64,000 nt of DNA from Parafrankia irregularis (lineage in GTDB: Bacteria; Actinomycetota; Actinomycetes; Frankiales; Frankiaceae): positions 1-64,000 of the forward strand of contig NZ_FAOZ01000019.1 of assembly GCF_001536285.1 (NCBI RefSeq). Reading direction: 5' to 3'. A program made the translations under genes and the position numbers. A model generated the notes under the pieces. That model saw nothing but the letters and a program-made list of their open reading frames with translations. It did no database searches and had not been told where the DNA came from. Shown in pieces: positions 44,433 to 60,815 of the stretch (the first letter of the stretch is position 1; each line of letters begins with the position of its first letter).

Positions 44433-45046
44433 CCGGTGGACTCCTCGGGCCGCGATCCGCCCCGGGGAATCCTCGTTCGATCGACCTCTGTCACTTGCTC
44501 CAACGTCTGCCCGGGCCGCCGTCGGTACGCACACCGTCGGCACGCCGGCCTTCCCCGCTCCCTGGGCGTGGGCGCGGGTCCGGCGCGACCGGACACCTCC
44601 CGCTGCCGGAATCGGCCGCAGGGAGCACCGTACGCCGGTGTGTCGCTGGAGGGACCCCCCGTCCGCCGTCGGGGGCCGAGCGAGTTCTCTCTCCGTGGTC
44701 GCACGGGCCACCGACCGCACCATCGTGCCGCGCCATACGCCGACTGGTCCAGCGTCAAAAGGATCTCTCCGCCCACCAGACCCGTCGCACCCCGGTCGAC
44801 TGAACTGGCATTACCAGAGCCGGGCCGGGTAGCGGTGCCGTGTCGGTCGTGGCCGCCGCGGGTGCGGTCGATACGGCCCATACCAGTGGCCAGGTTACGG
44901 AATGTAAGAGGTCCGACCGGCTTGTGCCGGTCGGACCTCTGGGCGTGGTGATGGGTCGGCGCCGACCCGTCCAGGCCCTGCCGGCGGGCTGTTCAGGCCC
45001 CGCCGGCGGCATCGTCAACGGGCCTGGACGGTGTCGGCCCCGGCCG
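44433..45046. other. Intergenic region between hppA and topA
   Basis: No gene supported. It holds a perfect hairpin at 44907-44940 downstream of hppA. The remainder should contain the topA promoter on the minus strand; I could not define it. Confidence 0.45.
44907..44940 (-). terminator. Perfect 15-bp hairpin downstream of hppA
   Basis: A 15-base arm at 44907-44921 is the exact reverse complement of 44926-44940, with a four-base loop. There is no T-tract, which is common for actinobacterial terminators. It lies 106 bases after the hppA stop and separates it from topA. Confidence 0.65.
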
Positions 45047-47407: not shown

Positions 47408-48462
47408 GGCTCCTCCCGGTCTGCATTGTCCCGGGACTGCTGTCCCGGTTTGTTCTGTGCATCCTCCGTGATCGTGCTGAGGTGGAAGCGGACGCCGACC
47501 GTCCGCGGCCATCGGTCGTCGATCACAGCCAGGTACGTCGCATCCGACGACGTTCTGGGTGGGTGACAGACACAGGTCAGGGCGTGAGCCGCGGTCCGGC
47601 GAAAGCCGAACGGTCGCCGGAGGCGACCGAGAACGAGGGAAGCGACACCGGTCCAGACCCGGCGCTGGTTCCCTCGCGCACGGCAAACACCTTCACGCGG
47701 CCCTTGCCTGTGGCCCGGGGCCGGACCCACGGGGAACACCAAGGGAAACACCGACGGTCTCGATCAACCGTCGGCGAGATGCGGCGCAGTCTATCCGTAG
47801 GTGTGTGACGTGCGCAGGTTTTTCGGTTGTGACTGGCGGGGGATGTTGTTTTTGTTGTAGAGGATCCCCTGGCGGTGGTGGCCTGCGTCTAGCCGTGGCT
47901 GGTCGGCTGACCTGGGCGAATCGTCACTCGCCGTTGCCGCCAGCCCTCGCCGGCCCTCGCGAGGCCAGGCAGCCGGTAGCAGAATCCGGAGAAGCCGCAG
48001 ATCCGGGCTGGACGGCCAGCGTCGATCTGGCGGATCCGCCCTGATGGGGTGCGAACCGCACCCGCACGGCCACCCTCGGGGATCCCACACCGCCGCGCGC
48101 CACCAGCAATTCCCTCAAGTGGGGGCAAAAGGGGCATTCGAGCACCGGGAAAGTACCGGCAACCCGCAAGAAGGAAGGATTCTGGTCGTAGGAACGACGA
48201 AAACCCTCCACTCTTGCGGCTCGCCAAACCGGCCACCGGGTCACCGGGCTGCCGGGCTCAGGGCGCGCAGGCGTCCGGGCCGCGTCCGTGGAGTGCGAAC
48301 CGCTCCGCACGGCCGACCAGCAATCTTGATCGGCGCCAAGCCCGACAGGCTGGCGCGCTTCGCCGGGGGCCGCCGTGACTGTGGACGCCCACCGACGGCC
48401 TGTGGCGCCGCCTGCCGGGGCGCCACAGGCGTGGGCCTGTAGCTGGGGGTCGGGAACCTGGC
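47408..48462. other. 1.05-kb intergenic region with a conserved 68-bp element
   Basis: No protein gene is supported despite its length. Several open frames on both strands have Arg/Pro/Gly-rich, non-protein-like composition. It contains element copy 1 (48162-48229) and a T-rich patch GTTGTTTTTGTTGTAG near 47846-47861. The hppA promoter must lie just above 47420 on the minus strand. Confidence 0.45.
48162..48229 (+). repeat. 68-bp structured intergenic element, copy 1
   Basis: Same length and about 81 percent identical (55 of 68 positions by hand alignment, no gaps) to 59322-59389, in the same orientation. The outer stem CCGCAAG (48164-48170) pairs with CTTGCGG (48213-48219). The inner hairpin arms 48178-48189 and 48194-48205 form 9 of 12 pairs. 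Similarity stops abruptly at both ends. Confidence 0.7.
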
Positions 48463-57486: not shown

Positions 57487-59066
57487 AGGTGCGCTCCGCC
57501 GGTGAGGCCGACTTCCGCGAGAAACCGATCGCTGAACCGGATGAGCGACGCTCCGGCAATCGAGCCCTCCGCAGCGGTGGTCGAGCCTTCCGCCGCCGCT
57601 TCGGCTTCGACGGGCGGTCGTTTTGTGATCCTCACTGTGGATTCCGAGCGCGGCGCGCCCGAAGTTCCGGCCGTGGCCGGACGGTTTCCTTTTCCTTCGG
57701 AGCCGGGTGTCTCCTGGTGGTCATGGCCGGCCATGACCACGGGGTTCGCGGCCGGTTCGTGGTGGATCACACCGGCCAGCGGAAGTCCCACGGTGGCGAC
57801 GATGCGGGCCACCGCCGGGTGCAGGGACTCGTCCGGCTCGTTCCGCTCGGCGGGTGAGCCGCTGCCGGGCGAACCGCCGCGAGCCGGGCCGGATGGCTGC
57901 GCGCCTGGCGGTGGGAGCATGCCCGCCGGTGGGAGGCGAACGACCAGCCGTACGTCCGAGCAGGTACGCGCCACGTACCTGGCGACCTGAGCCGCCGCCG
58001 CGGCTGTCGCGGGCTCGGCTGTCACGACGAGCAGCACCGTCTCGCAGAGGAAAAGCCCGACGTCCGCCCCGGCATCGGCGGAGCGAGGCAGGTCGGCGAC
58101 GATCAGGTCAGCTCCACCGCGAGCGGTGGCGAACATGGCGCTGATGGCCGGCGGCGACAGTACGGGGATCTCGTCGCGGTCCCAGGAGAGCACCGGCAGA
58201 TCGCCGCCCCACATGGGCGGCCCGGCAAGGAAGTGTTCGAGGAAGTCATCGTCGTCCTCGTCGTCGGCTGGCCGTGGGTGCGGTGGCTCCGCACGCGCGG
58301 CGTCCCCGATGACAGTGCCTGCCGGTGTGAGGGGACGGCGCCGGGTCCCTGGACGTGCCCAGGGGTGGGGGCCCCGGGCCTGGGGCGGGCGTGCCTGCGC
58401 CGCGGACAGATCGCCGCCGGCAGCGTGGCGCACCGCCGAGCCCGCGCCCGCCGGATGGAACCGAGGGATGCCTGCCGAGGGCCCGTCGCCGTGGCTGGCC
58501 TCCGATCCGAGACCGGAGCCCCAGTGCGTGTCCGCGCCCACCGTGAGCCCGCCGAACGGGTCGATCTCCAGCAGCGCCGAGCGGACCTGGCGCCGCAGCC
58601 CGGCGCGGGCCAGCGTCACGGCCAGGGTGGTGGAGCCGGCCCCGCCGTGCCCGCCGAGCACGCCGAGGGTCAGCGACCGGCGGCCGGCGGTGTCCGCCGC
58701 ACGGGAGAGGACGTTCACGAGCCAGGTCTCGGCCGCGGGAAGGAAGATCACGTGTTCGGCATTGATCAGAAGCGCCAGACTCCAGGTCCGGCGGTCGTCG
58801 ACATCGGTTCCGACGAGCACGATGTCCGACCGCGGCGGCAGATTCGCGGCGACACAGGCCGCGGCGCGGTCGGCGCCTACCACGACCAGCGGTGCGTTGG
58901 CCCAGTACCGGCTGGCGGCCCTGGCCGTCGGCGCGACCGTCACGGTCGTGCCCGCCGCGGCCGCGAGCCGCAGCAGGTCGTCGAGAAGCTCGTGCGAATC
59001 GGTGACGACCAGCGGGCGTCCACGGGGAGTGTCGTCGGCTGGCGTGATCGGCTTCGCGGGGGTCAT
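57483..59066 (-). CDS. CpaE-like (Ssd-type) ParA-family protein
   Basis: 527 residues, ATG 59066. An N-terminal receiver-like domain (Arg-Pro-Leu-Val-Val-Thr-Asp-Ser, Pro-Leu-Val-Val-Val-Gly-Ala-Asp) is followed by a degenerate ParA module, Gly-Gly-His-Gly-Gly-Ala-Gly-Ser-Thr-Thr-Leu-Ala, which lacks the usual P-loop lysine. That feature occurs in the actinobacterial helicase/secretion CpaE-like group, which includes mycobacterial Ssd. Later motifs: Leu-Leu-Glu-Ile-Asp-Pro-Phe-Gly-Gly and Leu-Ile-Val-Ala-Asp-Leu-Pro-Arg. A Gly/Arg/Pro insertion lies between them. The C-terminal 120 residues are disordered. It probably positions or recruits the Tad machinery. First gene of the operon. Confidence 0.87.
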   Translation of the reverse strand: MTPAKPITPADDTPRGRPLVVTDSHELLDDLLRLAAAAGTTVTVAPTARAASRYWANAPLVVVGADRAAACVAANLPPRSDIVLVGTDVDDRRTWSLALLINAEHVIFLPAAETWLVNVLSRAADTAGRRSLTLGVLGGHGGAGSTTLAVTLARAGLRRQVRSALLEIDPFGGLTVGADTHWGSGLGSEASHGDGPSAGIPRFHPAGAGSAVRHAAGGDLSAAQARPPQARGPHPWARPGTRRRPLTPAGTVIGDAARAEPPHPRPADDEDDDDFLEHFLAGPPMWGGDLPVLSWDRDEIPVLSPPAISAMFATARGGADLIVADLPRSADAGADVGLFLCETVLLVVTAEPATAAAAAQVARYVARTCSDVRLVVRLPPAGMLPPPGAQPSGPARGGSPGSGSPAERNEPDESLHPAVARIVATVGLPLAGVIHHEPAANPVVMAGHDHQETPGSEGKGNRPATAGTSGAPRSESTVRITKRPPVEAEAAAEGSTTAAEGSIAGASLIRFSDRFLAEVGLTGGAHL

Positions 59067-59487
59067 GGCGGGCCGTCCCTTCGGCGCGGGTGGCTGTGTG
59101 CGGCCACCATGCGCCAGCCGGGCCGGGCAATGTGGATCTTTGGTGGGGGCCGGGCCGTGTTATAAGGGCCGGCCCGCGTCGGTACCGAGGTGGGACCGGA
59201 CGCCGATGGAGATCATCGGCGTTCGAGCCGCGGCTCCGGGTCACCCATCGAGGGAGGGTCTCGTACCGCCATCCGGTATCGGCAATTCACCGCAAAAGGA
59301 GGGGCGTGGAGCCGACTGTCGACCCGCAAGAAAGAAGGATTTTGGTCGTCCCGACGACCAAAATCGTTCACGATTGCGACTCGCCAAACAGGGCGATCCG
59401 AGGATCTTCGTTGCCGTGGCGACCTCGTCCTGGCGACCACAGTCCTCAGGTCTCGCCTGGCAGCGGCTGTTCGAGGAGTAGAGGTTC
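59067..59487. other. Intergenic region with second copy of the 68-bp element
   Basis: No gene supported. It holds element copy 2 (59322-59389). On the minus strand, the AT-richer sequence around 59158-59168 (TGTTATAAGGG on plus) may be the Tad operon promoter about 95 bases before its first ATG. Confidence 0.45.
59322..59389 (+). repeat. 68-bp structured intergenic element, copy 2
   Basis: Gap-free match to 48162-48229. The inner hairpin is perfect here: 12-base arms at 59338-59349 and 59354-59365 around a CCCG loop. The outer stem is shorter (CGCAA with TTGCG). Its AT-rich stem stands out against the surrounding GC-rich sequence. Confidence 0.72.
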
Positions 59488-60558
59488 TCAGGCGCGGGAG
59501 AGCGCCTCGCACACCGCGAGTGATTCCCGGGCCGCGAGCCCGACCGCGCGGGCACAGTGCCGCACCCAGGAACCCACCCCGTCCGCCCCGCCCGCTACAT
59601 ACGCGGCAAGAGCGGCGCTGTAGGTCTCCTCGGTATCAACGGTGCCGGTGCCGGTGCCGGCACCGGTGTCGTTGCCCGCGCTGGCAGCGGACGGCGCGGA
59701 CGGGGCTCCGGCTCCGCCCAGGGCCGCGGCCGCGCTGCCGTGAGCCAGCTCGAGGTGGCCGACGTCCATCGCGACCAGGGCCTTCGGGTCGAGGCCTCGG
59801 CTGATCAGGACGAGCCGGGCGGCGGCGCGGGCGATGATGCCGTCGAGCACGCCGAACGGCCGGATCGCGAGCAGCTCCCCATGGATGATCGCGGCGACCA
59901 CGATCGCGGGAGCGCGGGTCGGGGCGGTCAGCACGGCGGTGAGCCCGTCGAGCCGCACTGACATCTCCATGGCGGACACCGTCGGCTCGCCCCAAGGGCC
60001 AGCCAGCTCCGCGGTGCCGGCGGTTCCCGGCCCCCGAACGTCGACCCGCGGCCGGCCCAGCGCCTCGTCCGGGAGAAGGCCTCGACCGGCGAGAACGTGC
60101 ATGCGTGCCAGGGCCTGGCGCGGTGCGCGCTCCCACGCGGATGACAGCGTGCCCAGCTCCGCGTAGAGCCGGACGGCCCCCAGCGTCACGGCCAGCGACC
60201 GGCTGTCGGTGCCGTCGGCCGGTCCGCTGACGCGCCCGTCGGTGAGCCCGGCCGGGACGGCGGCACCGGCACCCGTGTTGGGACCGGCATCGGCATCGAG
60301 GGCGAGCTCATGGTCGCCGAGGTGGGCTCTGAGCACGTCGAGTGGGACGTCGTGCCCTTCCAACGCGGCGGACGCCCGGGCGGCGCGCAGCGAGGCCTCG
60401 GCGGTCACCTCGGCGCTGCGGCGGCGCAGGATGCGGTGCCGCAGCAGTGCGTCCACGCCCGCGCGCGCGGCCGTGGCGGCCTCGTCGACACCGGGGATCG
60501 CCGCAACACTGGCGAGCGGGTCGCTACCGACGACTGATGCCGACGAAGGTGCTGTCAC
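59488..60558 (-). CDS. Fic-like domain protein with degenerate motif
   Basis: 356 residues from GTG 60558 (the frame is open to 60612). A helical N-terminal half has Arg-Arg-Arg-Ser-Ala-Glu-Val-Thr-Ala-Glu-Ala and Ala-Ala-Leu-Glu-Gly-His, a Fic-like inhibitory-helix-region pattern. The core motif reads His-Gly-Glu-Leu-Leu-Ala-Ile-Arg-Pro-Phe-Gly-Val-Leu-Asp-Gly-Ile-Ile-Ala-Arg-Ala-Ala-Ala-Arg. This resembles the Fic HPFxxGNGRxxR motif, but the catalytic His is Arg and the Gly-Asn-Gly-Arg is altered. AMP-transfer activity is therefore unlikely. Similar proteins lie near Tad genes in other actinobacteria (from memory). It may have a structural or regulatory role. Confidence 0.6.
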   Translation of the reverse strand: MTAPSSASVVGSDPLASVAAIPGVDEAATAARAGVDALLRHRILRRRSAEVTAEASLRAARASAALEGHDVPLDVLRAHLGDHELALDADAGPNTGAGAAVPAGLTDGRVSGPADGTDSRSLAVTLGAVRLYAELGTLSSAWERAPRQALARMHVLAGRGLLPDEALGRPRVDVRGPGTAGTAELAGPWGEPTVSAMEMSVRLDGLTAVLTAPTRAPAIVVAAIIHGELLAIRPFGVLDGIIARAAARLVLISRGLDPKALVAMDVGHLELAHGSAAAALGGAGAPSAPSAASAGNDTGAGTGTGTVDTEETYSAALAAYVAGGADGVGSWVRHCARAVGLAARESLAVCEALSRA

Positions 60559-60815
60559 CCGGCAGACGCTACCTCGCCCGGGTGTGCCGAGGACGGCTCC
60601 CGACTTCGTCATGACCGCCGAAAGGGCGAATCGTCCCTCGGATCACACCGTTCGATCGGGCCCGTCGCCTCCCGTGTTCCGCCGCCGCGGGCCACACTGC
60701 TCACAGGGGATCCGGACGGGGCGGCCACGCAGCGCCGCCGCGTGCCCCCGCAAGCGCGCCGGCACCGGACCCGATCGGCGGTGTCACGGGCCGGCTTTGA
60801 GAGGGAGGAGCCGGC

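Follow-up and report, generated by a model that had tools for sequence, protein, structure and literature searches.

In a 64-kb stretch of Parafrankia irregularis DNA (hereafter the window, meaning the whole stretch that was analysed), positions 48162-48229 and 59322-59389 are identical at 55 of 68 bases without a gap, which raises the question of what kind of element the two sites represent. This match, first pointed out in an earlier note, is real, and a chance origin can be ruled out since the next-best place in the window reaches 33 of 68. Both sites are AT-richer than their surroundings, as was claimed (GC 0.56 and 0.51, compared with 0.71 for the window), and our codon-usage gene calls put both in intergenic gaps, in agreement with the gene-free DNA described before. 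Copy 1 was said to lie between hppA and a sigma-regulator pair, and its neighbours are indeed an H+-pyrophosphatase gene (PF03030) and a HATPase_c_2/STAS pair; copy 2 has a septum-site Ssd-like gene and a gene of no assigned family for neighbours.

The core of the element is an 83-bp near-perfect inverted repeat with up to 36 potential pairs and a 4-base loop, whose consensus begins with GCCCGGTTTGGCGAG and ends with CGCCAGGCGA. In copy 1 the core palindrome spans 48152..48234 (82.4 bits with our covariance model R1) and is placed on the minus strand, which folds better (-47.5 kcal/mol, z -6.4, against -30.5 kcal/mol for the plus strand) because several pairs are G-U there and A-C on the other strand. 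In copy 2 it spans 59312..59394, also on the minus strand (95.8 bits; z -3.8 and -4.5 for the two strands). The inner stem-loops, to which no strand is assigned, lie at 48168..48215 and 59328..59375, with Watson-Crick pairs at 16 and 17 of 22 positions, respectively, and a loop of 4 bases in each case. The outer CCGCAAG/CTTGCGG stem enclosing an inner hairpin, as originally proposed, is present, but is better described as a single near-continuous stem-loop of up to 36 pairs.

Similarly, the sharp end of the similarity is true for this pair only, given that homology across the copies starts about 200 bp ahead of the core and reaches about 330 bp beyond it, with fewer and fewer copies sharing the outer parts. 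The core frequently sits within a modular repeat that can reach ~400 bp, with GAGGGGCAAAAGGGGC and tandem CCGGGCTA and GTGCGAACC boxes as recurrent modules, and both modular and truncated copies are seen; the 83-bp inverted repeat would be the invariable part, to which many copies add modules. Copy 1 is near full length, its extended element at 47971..48351 (minus strand, 381 bp) being 73% identical to the element at locus L163 of the sibling strain Parafrankia sp. EUN1f. In copy 2 the extended homology covers one arm only, 59239..59394 on the minus strand (query 940-1095 of window positions 58300-60700), and matches other copies at 71-80% over ~155 bp. Adjoining copy 2, a second, decayed palindrome at 59396-59452 (GAGGATCTTCG...CGACCACAGTCCTC) has an intact counterpart in EUN1f (AGATCTGAGGATCTTCGTCGTCCTGGCGACCACAGTCCTCAGATCT) and is, like copy 2, a member of the GAGGAT/GGTCGT superfamily.

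The match had been called a two-copy element, which holds inside the window but not in the 9.54-Mb genome of P. irregularis, where R1, built from 31 copies, locates no fewer than 97 separate sites, almost all of them with E values far under 1e-9. This number is a lower bound because scoring covered 150 of the 5194 candidates; searching the 82 contigs at the DNA level returned 75 matching pieces at E <= 10. The large number of copies rules out a simple duplication. The superfamily is larger than the counted subfamily, since its half-sites TGAGGATTTTGGTCGT (<=3 mismatches) were found 19 times (17 times in intergenic DNA) in 634 kb of the P. irregularis genome that lie away from the copies, compared with 2 for the reversed control.

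The covariance model also detects at least 40 copies in EUN1f, and when the genomes of 84,980 species, a collection that possibly lacks the genome of the window, were scanned for an exact pattern, EUN1f alone matched. Neither the DNA search nor the covariance model gave a convincing copy in the genomes of four other Parafrankia species, in what is a small genus sample of six genomes. Two genomes of other genera in the same family, G011 and G019, are hit weakly by the core model (four matches, with a best E of 8e-6, and one at 0.007, respectively), and these hits are possibly distant members of the superfamily. A phage or plasmid origin was rejected, as no copy was found in either of the collections searched, and so was a known RNA family, the Rfam search of the window having returned a tRNA and no curated-family match for the repeat at gathering score. 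No published record of this Parafrankia repeat was found in the part of the open-access literature that was searched.

In regards to the position of the copies relative to genes, which were called with a home-made codon-usage finder and not a standard annotator, 96 of the 97 are intergenic and one overlaps a predicted gene. The intergenic copies lie between convergent (46), same-direction (42) and divergent (8) genes, compared with 63, 293 and 101 among adjacent gene pairs drawn as background from the same loci, for an expected convergent share of 14%. The enrichment of convergent over divergent spaces is highly significant (Fisher p = 1.8e-9), as is the convergent share itself (p about 1e-15). 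Between same-direction genes, 38 of 43 copies are nearer to the 3' end of the upstream gene (median 119 v 305 bp). The flanking genes belong to many ordinary families. A preference for convergent intergenic spaces has been described for REPs (PMC1525189).

Given the number of copies, their structure and their location, we favour, at a probability of roughly 70%, a Parafrankia lineage-specific, non-coding, palindromic interspersed repeat that would be mobile and be retained at the 3' ends of genes, the 68-bp match being part of one subfamily of it. The dispersed REP/MITE-like repeat, one of the options listed in the earlier note, fits a family with about 100 copies or more that is palindromic, extragenic and located near gene ends; the observation made at that time is thus confirmed and its interpretation supported in part. 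The copies would persist where an insertion is harmless, that is, 3' of genes and especially between convergent ones. Transcription presumably enters the DNA there from one side or from both, and the RNA could fold into a long hairpin. The likely role of the repeat, if any, would be that of a two-way transcript-end or insulating hairpin, and the former is plausible from the position and the retained pairing.

A stronger version of this idea, that the copies are functional bidirectional terminators whose hairpin stops the polymerase from both sides and whose sequence may drift provided that pairing is kept, would account for the strong bias to convergent pairs and 3' ends. However, the location is not decisive, because neutral insertions retained outside promoters, or purged from them, predict the same bias. 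In the consensus the first T-run, CCCCTTTTGCC, comes about 15 bases or more past the stem, and the U-tract that an intrinsic terminator has directly after its hairpin is absent. As for copy 1, the view that it is a needed terminator is disfavoured, since another hairpin (48399-48429) is already present nearer the gene and the element has no T-run immediately past its stem.

Of the 40 EUN1f copies fetched, 28 are opposite a P. irregularis copy at the same site, with a core identity of 0.63-0.96 compared with about 0.96 in the flanking genes. Divergence is far greater in the core than in the genes around it, and this fast turnover of the sequence left the palindrome mostly in place. Copy 2 and five of eight further sites, the eight having been selected for lack of a strong EUN1f match, face a different hairpin of the superfamily in EUN1f, 60-75% identical, in which 15-21 of 24 positions are paired (random 100-bp stretches typically give 13-14). 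No recognisable member was found in EUN1f at four sites, namely copy 1 and the remaining selected loci L031, L035 and L042, one of these three having a short spacer only. Conversely, two strong EUN1f copies are missing from P. irregularis, where other superfamily fragments occupy the gap. The hairpins kept at orthologous sites despite such low identity are what bidirectional terminators would predict, whereas the three of eight selected sites without a recognisable member are not. We regard terminators as a possible but rather doubtful explanation.

It is also conceivable, though improbable, that the hairpins are interchangeable gene-end modules, of which the position and structure are selected and the sequence is repeatedly overwritten by members of the superfamily. 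If that were the case, a repeat family would supply and renew the terminators of its host.

The repeat would have multiplied in the common ancestor of P. irregularis and EUN1f, either mobilised in trans by some enzyme or copied by recombination. Mobility is suggested by the dispersal of the copies and the differences between strains, not by clean insertions: at every unshared site inspected the intergenic DNA is either wholly different or contains other superfamily pieces. Transposition is therefore putative, as none of these sites is cleanly empty and bears a target-site duplication. The dispersed and palindromic nature of the repeat, its modular and truncated copies and its presence/absence differences between sibling strains would also suit a MITE, a non-autonomous transposon in which the ends of the ~400-bp element are the true ends and a transposase family is present but unrecognised. 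This hypothesis is tentative and less likely than not, given the lack of a target-site duplication, of defined ends and of an autonomous relative, no partner element having been found for the palindromic repeat. When the Pfam families of 96 flanking proteins are ranked by frequency, the top 25 include no transposase family. Between the two copies that lie closest together (C10, separated by 3.5 kb), the one close pair examined, there are genes for an MFS transporter and a TetR-like regulator and one more ordinary gene but no transposase, and a composite transposon was rejected on this ground. A link to RAYT/IS200 elements can be rejected as well, since the distribution of Y1_Tnp (PF01797) does not track the repeat, with none in EUN1f, two in P. 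irregularis and nine in the repeat-free genome G004.

Between orthologues, nine two-sided Watson-Crick changes were observed, compared with about 2.4 expected on a rough independence estimate, and double changes across 77 copies fill 40 cells, compared with 29.5 +/- 3.5 in shuffles, a control that ignores relatedness. Covariation is weak but detectable. The earlier note would have reduced the match to a chance or ancient duplication had there been no further genomic copies and no covariation; many of the former and some of the latter were found. The excess of two-sided changes is also in line with bidirectional terminators, for which the absence of a strand bias would be expected if both strands must fold.

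A structured RNA, either a small RNA or a 3'-UTR element read from the minus strand of the window, could be proposed from the better minus-strand fold of copy 1 (-47.5 against -30.5 kcal/mol) and from the consensus, which on that strand shows four G-U pairs and not a single A-C. The derived changes, however, show no significant preference for G-U. Among orthologues, once positions that are G-U in the consensus and would inflate the count are left out, there were 39 G-U v 27 A-C changes (p = 0.18). An excess of G-U of 163 v 103 comes mainly from two positions, outside of which the paralogues give 107 v 97, no longer significant. Strand-specific selection on an RNA is therefore not detected, and the small RNA family among the options raised earlier is not supported by this test; with no Rfam match either, we consider a strand-specific RNA very improbable.

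At the DNA level, the symmetric palindrome could form a cruciform or be bound by a nucleoid or regulatory protein, a protein-binding site being another option of the earlier note. The motif GGTCGTNNNNACGACC (<=2 mismatches) occurs 2034 times in the P. irregularis genome compared with 704 for the reversed pattern, an excess that is larger than the counted repeats alone explain and for which repeats and composition account in part. Nonetheless, with 36 pairs and modules in addition, the conserved stretch greatly exceeds usual binding sites in length and the copies avoid promoters, which makes such a site an improbable explanation.

Palindromic repeats near gene ends have counterparts in other bacteria. 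REP/BIME sequences of the GTAG- and CGTC-tagged superfamilies are 20-40 bp long (PMC3733652), in a survey whose main text does not mention Frankia or Actinobacteria. The Parafrankia repeat is like them in being extragenic, palindromic and of high copy number (97 or more places), but its core is 83 bp with 36 potential pairs, its consensus has no unpaired GTAG or CGTC end tag and, unlike the GTAG superfamily, it shows no association with RAYT (Y1_Tnp) genes. MITE-like intergenic repeats include ERIC, RUP, Correia and the modular BOX. By description the Parafrankia repeat resembles these, being ~100-400 bp long, palindromic, non-coding and modular with ~100 copies, although no sequence relation was seen and no target duplication or parental transposon was found for it. 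BOX and RUP have been described as MITE-like (PMC3049150). With intrinsic terminators it shares a stable hairpin just 3' of genes and a preference for convergent gaps, but its stem is much longer, no U-tract adjoins it and it is a repeated sequence family. Two papers on Frankia, of the same bacterial family (PMC2770080, PMC4447401), count repeats and transposases; the parts consulted cover transposases, insertion sequences and palindromes in bulk but do not describe this repeat.

The repeat marks gene ends and, since it differs between sibling strains, it is useful for typing. It also offers a test case in high-GC actinobacteria for whether repeats at 3' ends persist by mere tolerance or because they have been co-opted as two-way terminators.

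Two other hairpins were seen in the window. The one at 48399-48429 (CTGTGGCGCC...GGCGCCACAG) is 3' of the anti-sigma-like gene, nearer to its end than copy 1, and its position is occupied by differing hairpins in EUN1f and in two further genomes (G002 and G005), as if this terminator were kept by structure only. The other, a strong terminator-like inverted repeat (GAGGTCCGACCGGC...GCCGGTCGGACCTC), is intergenic and lies at 44900-44947.
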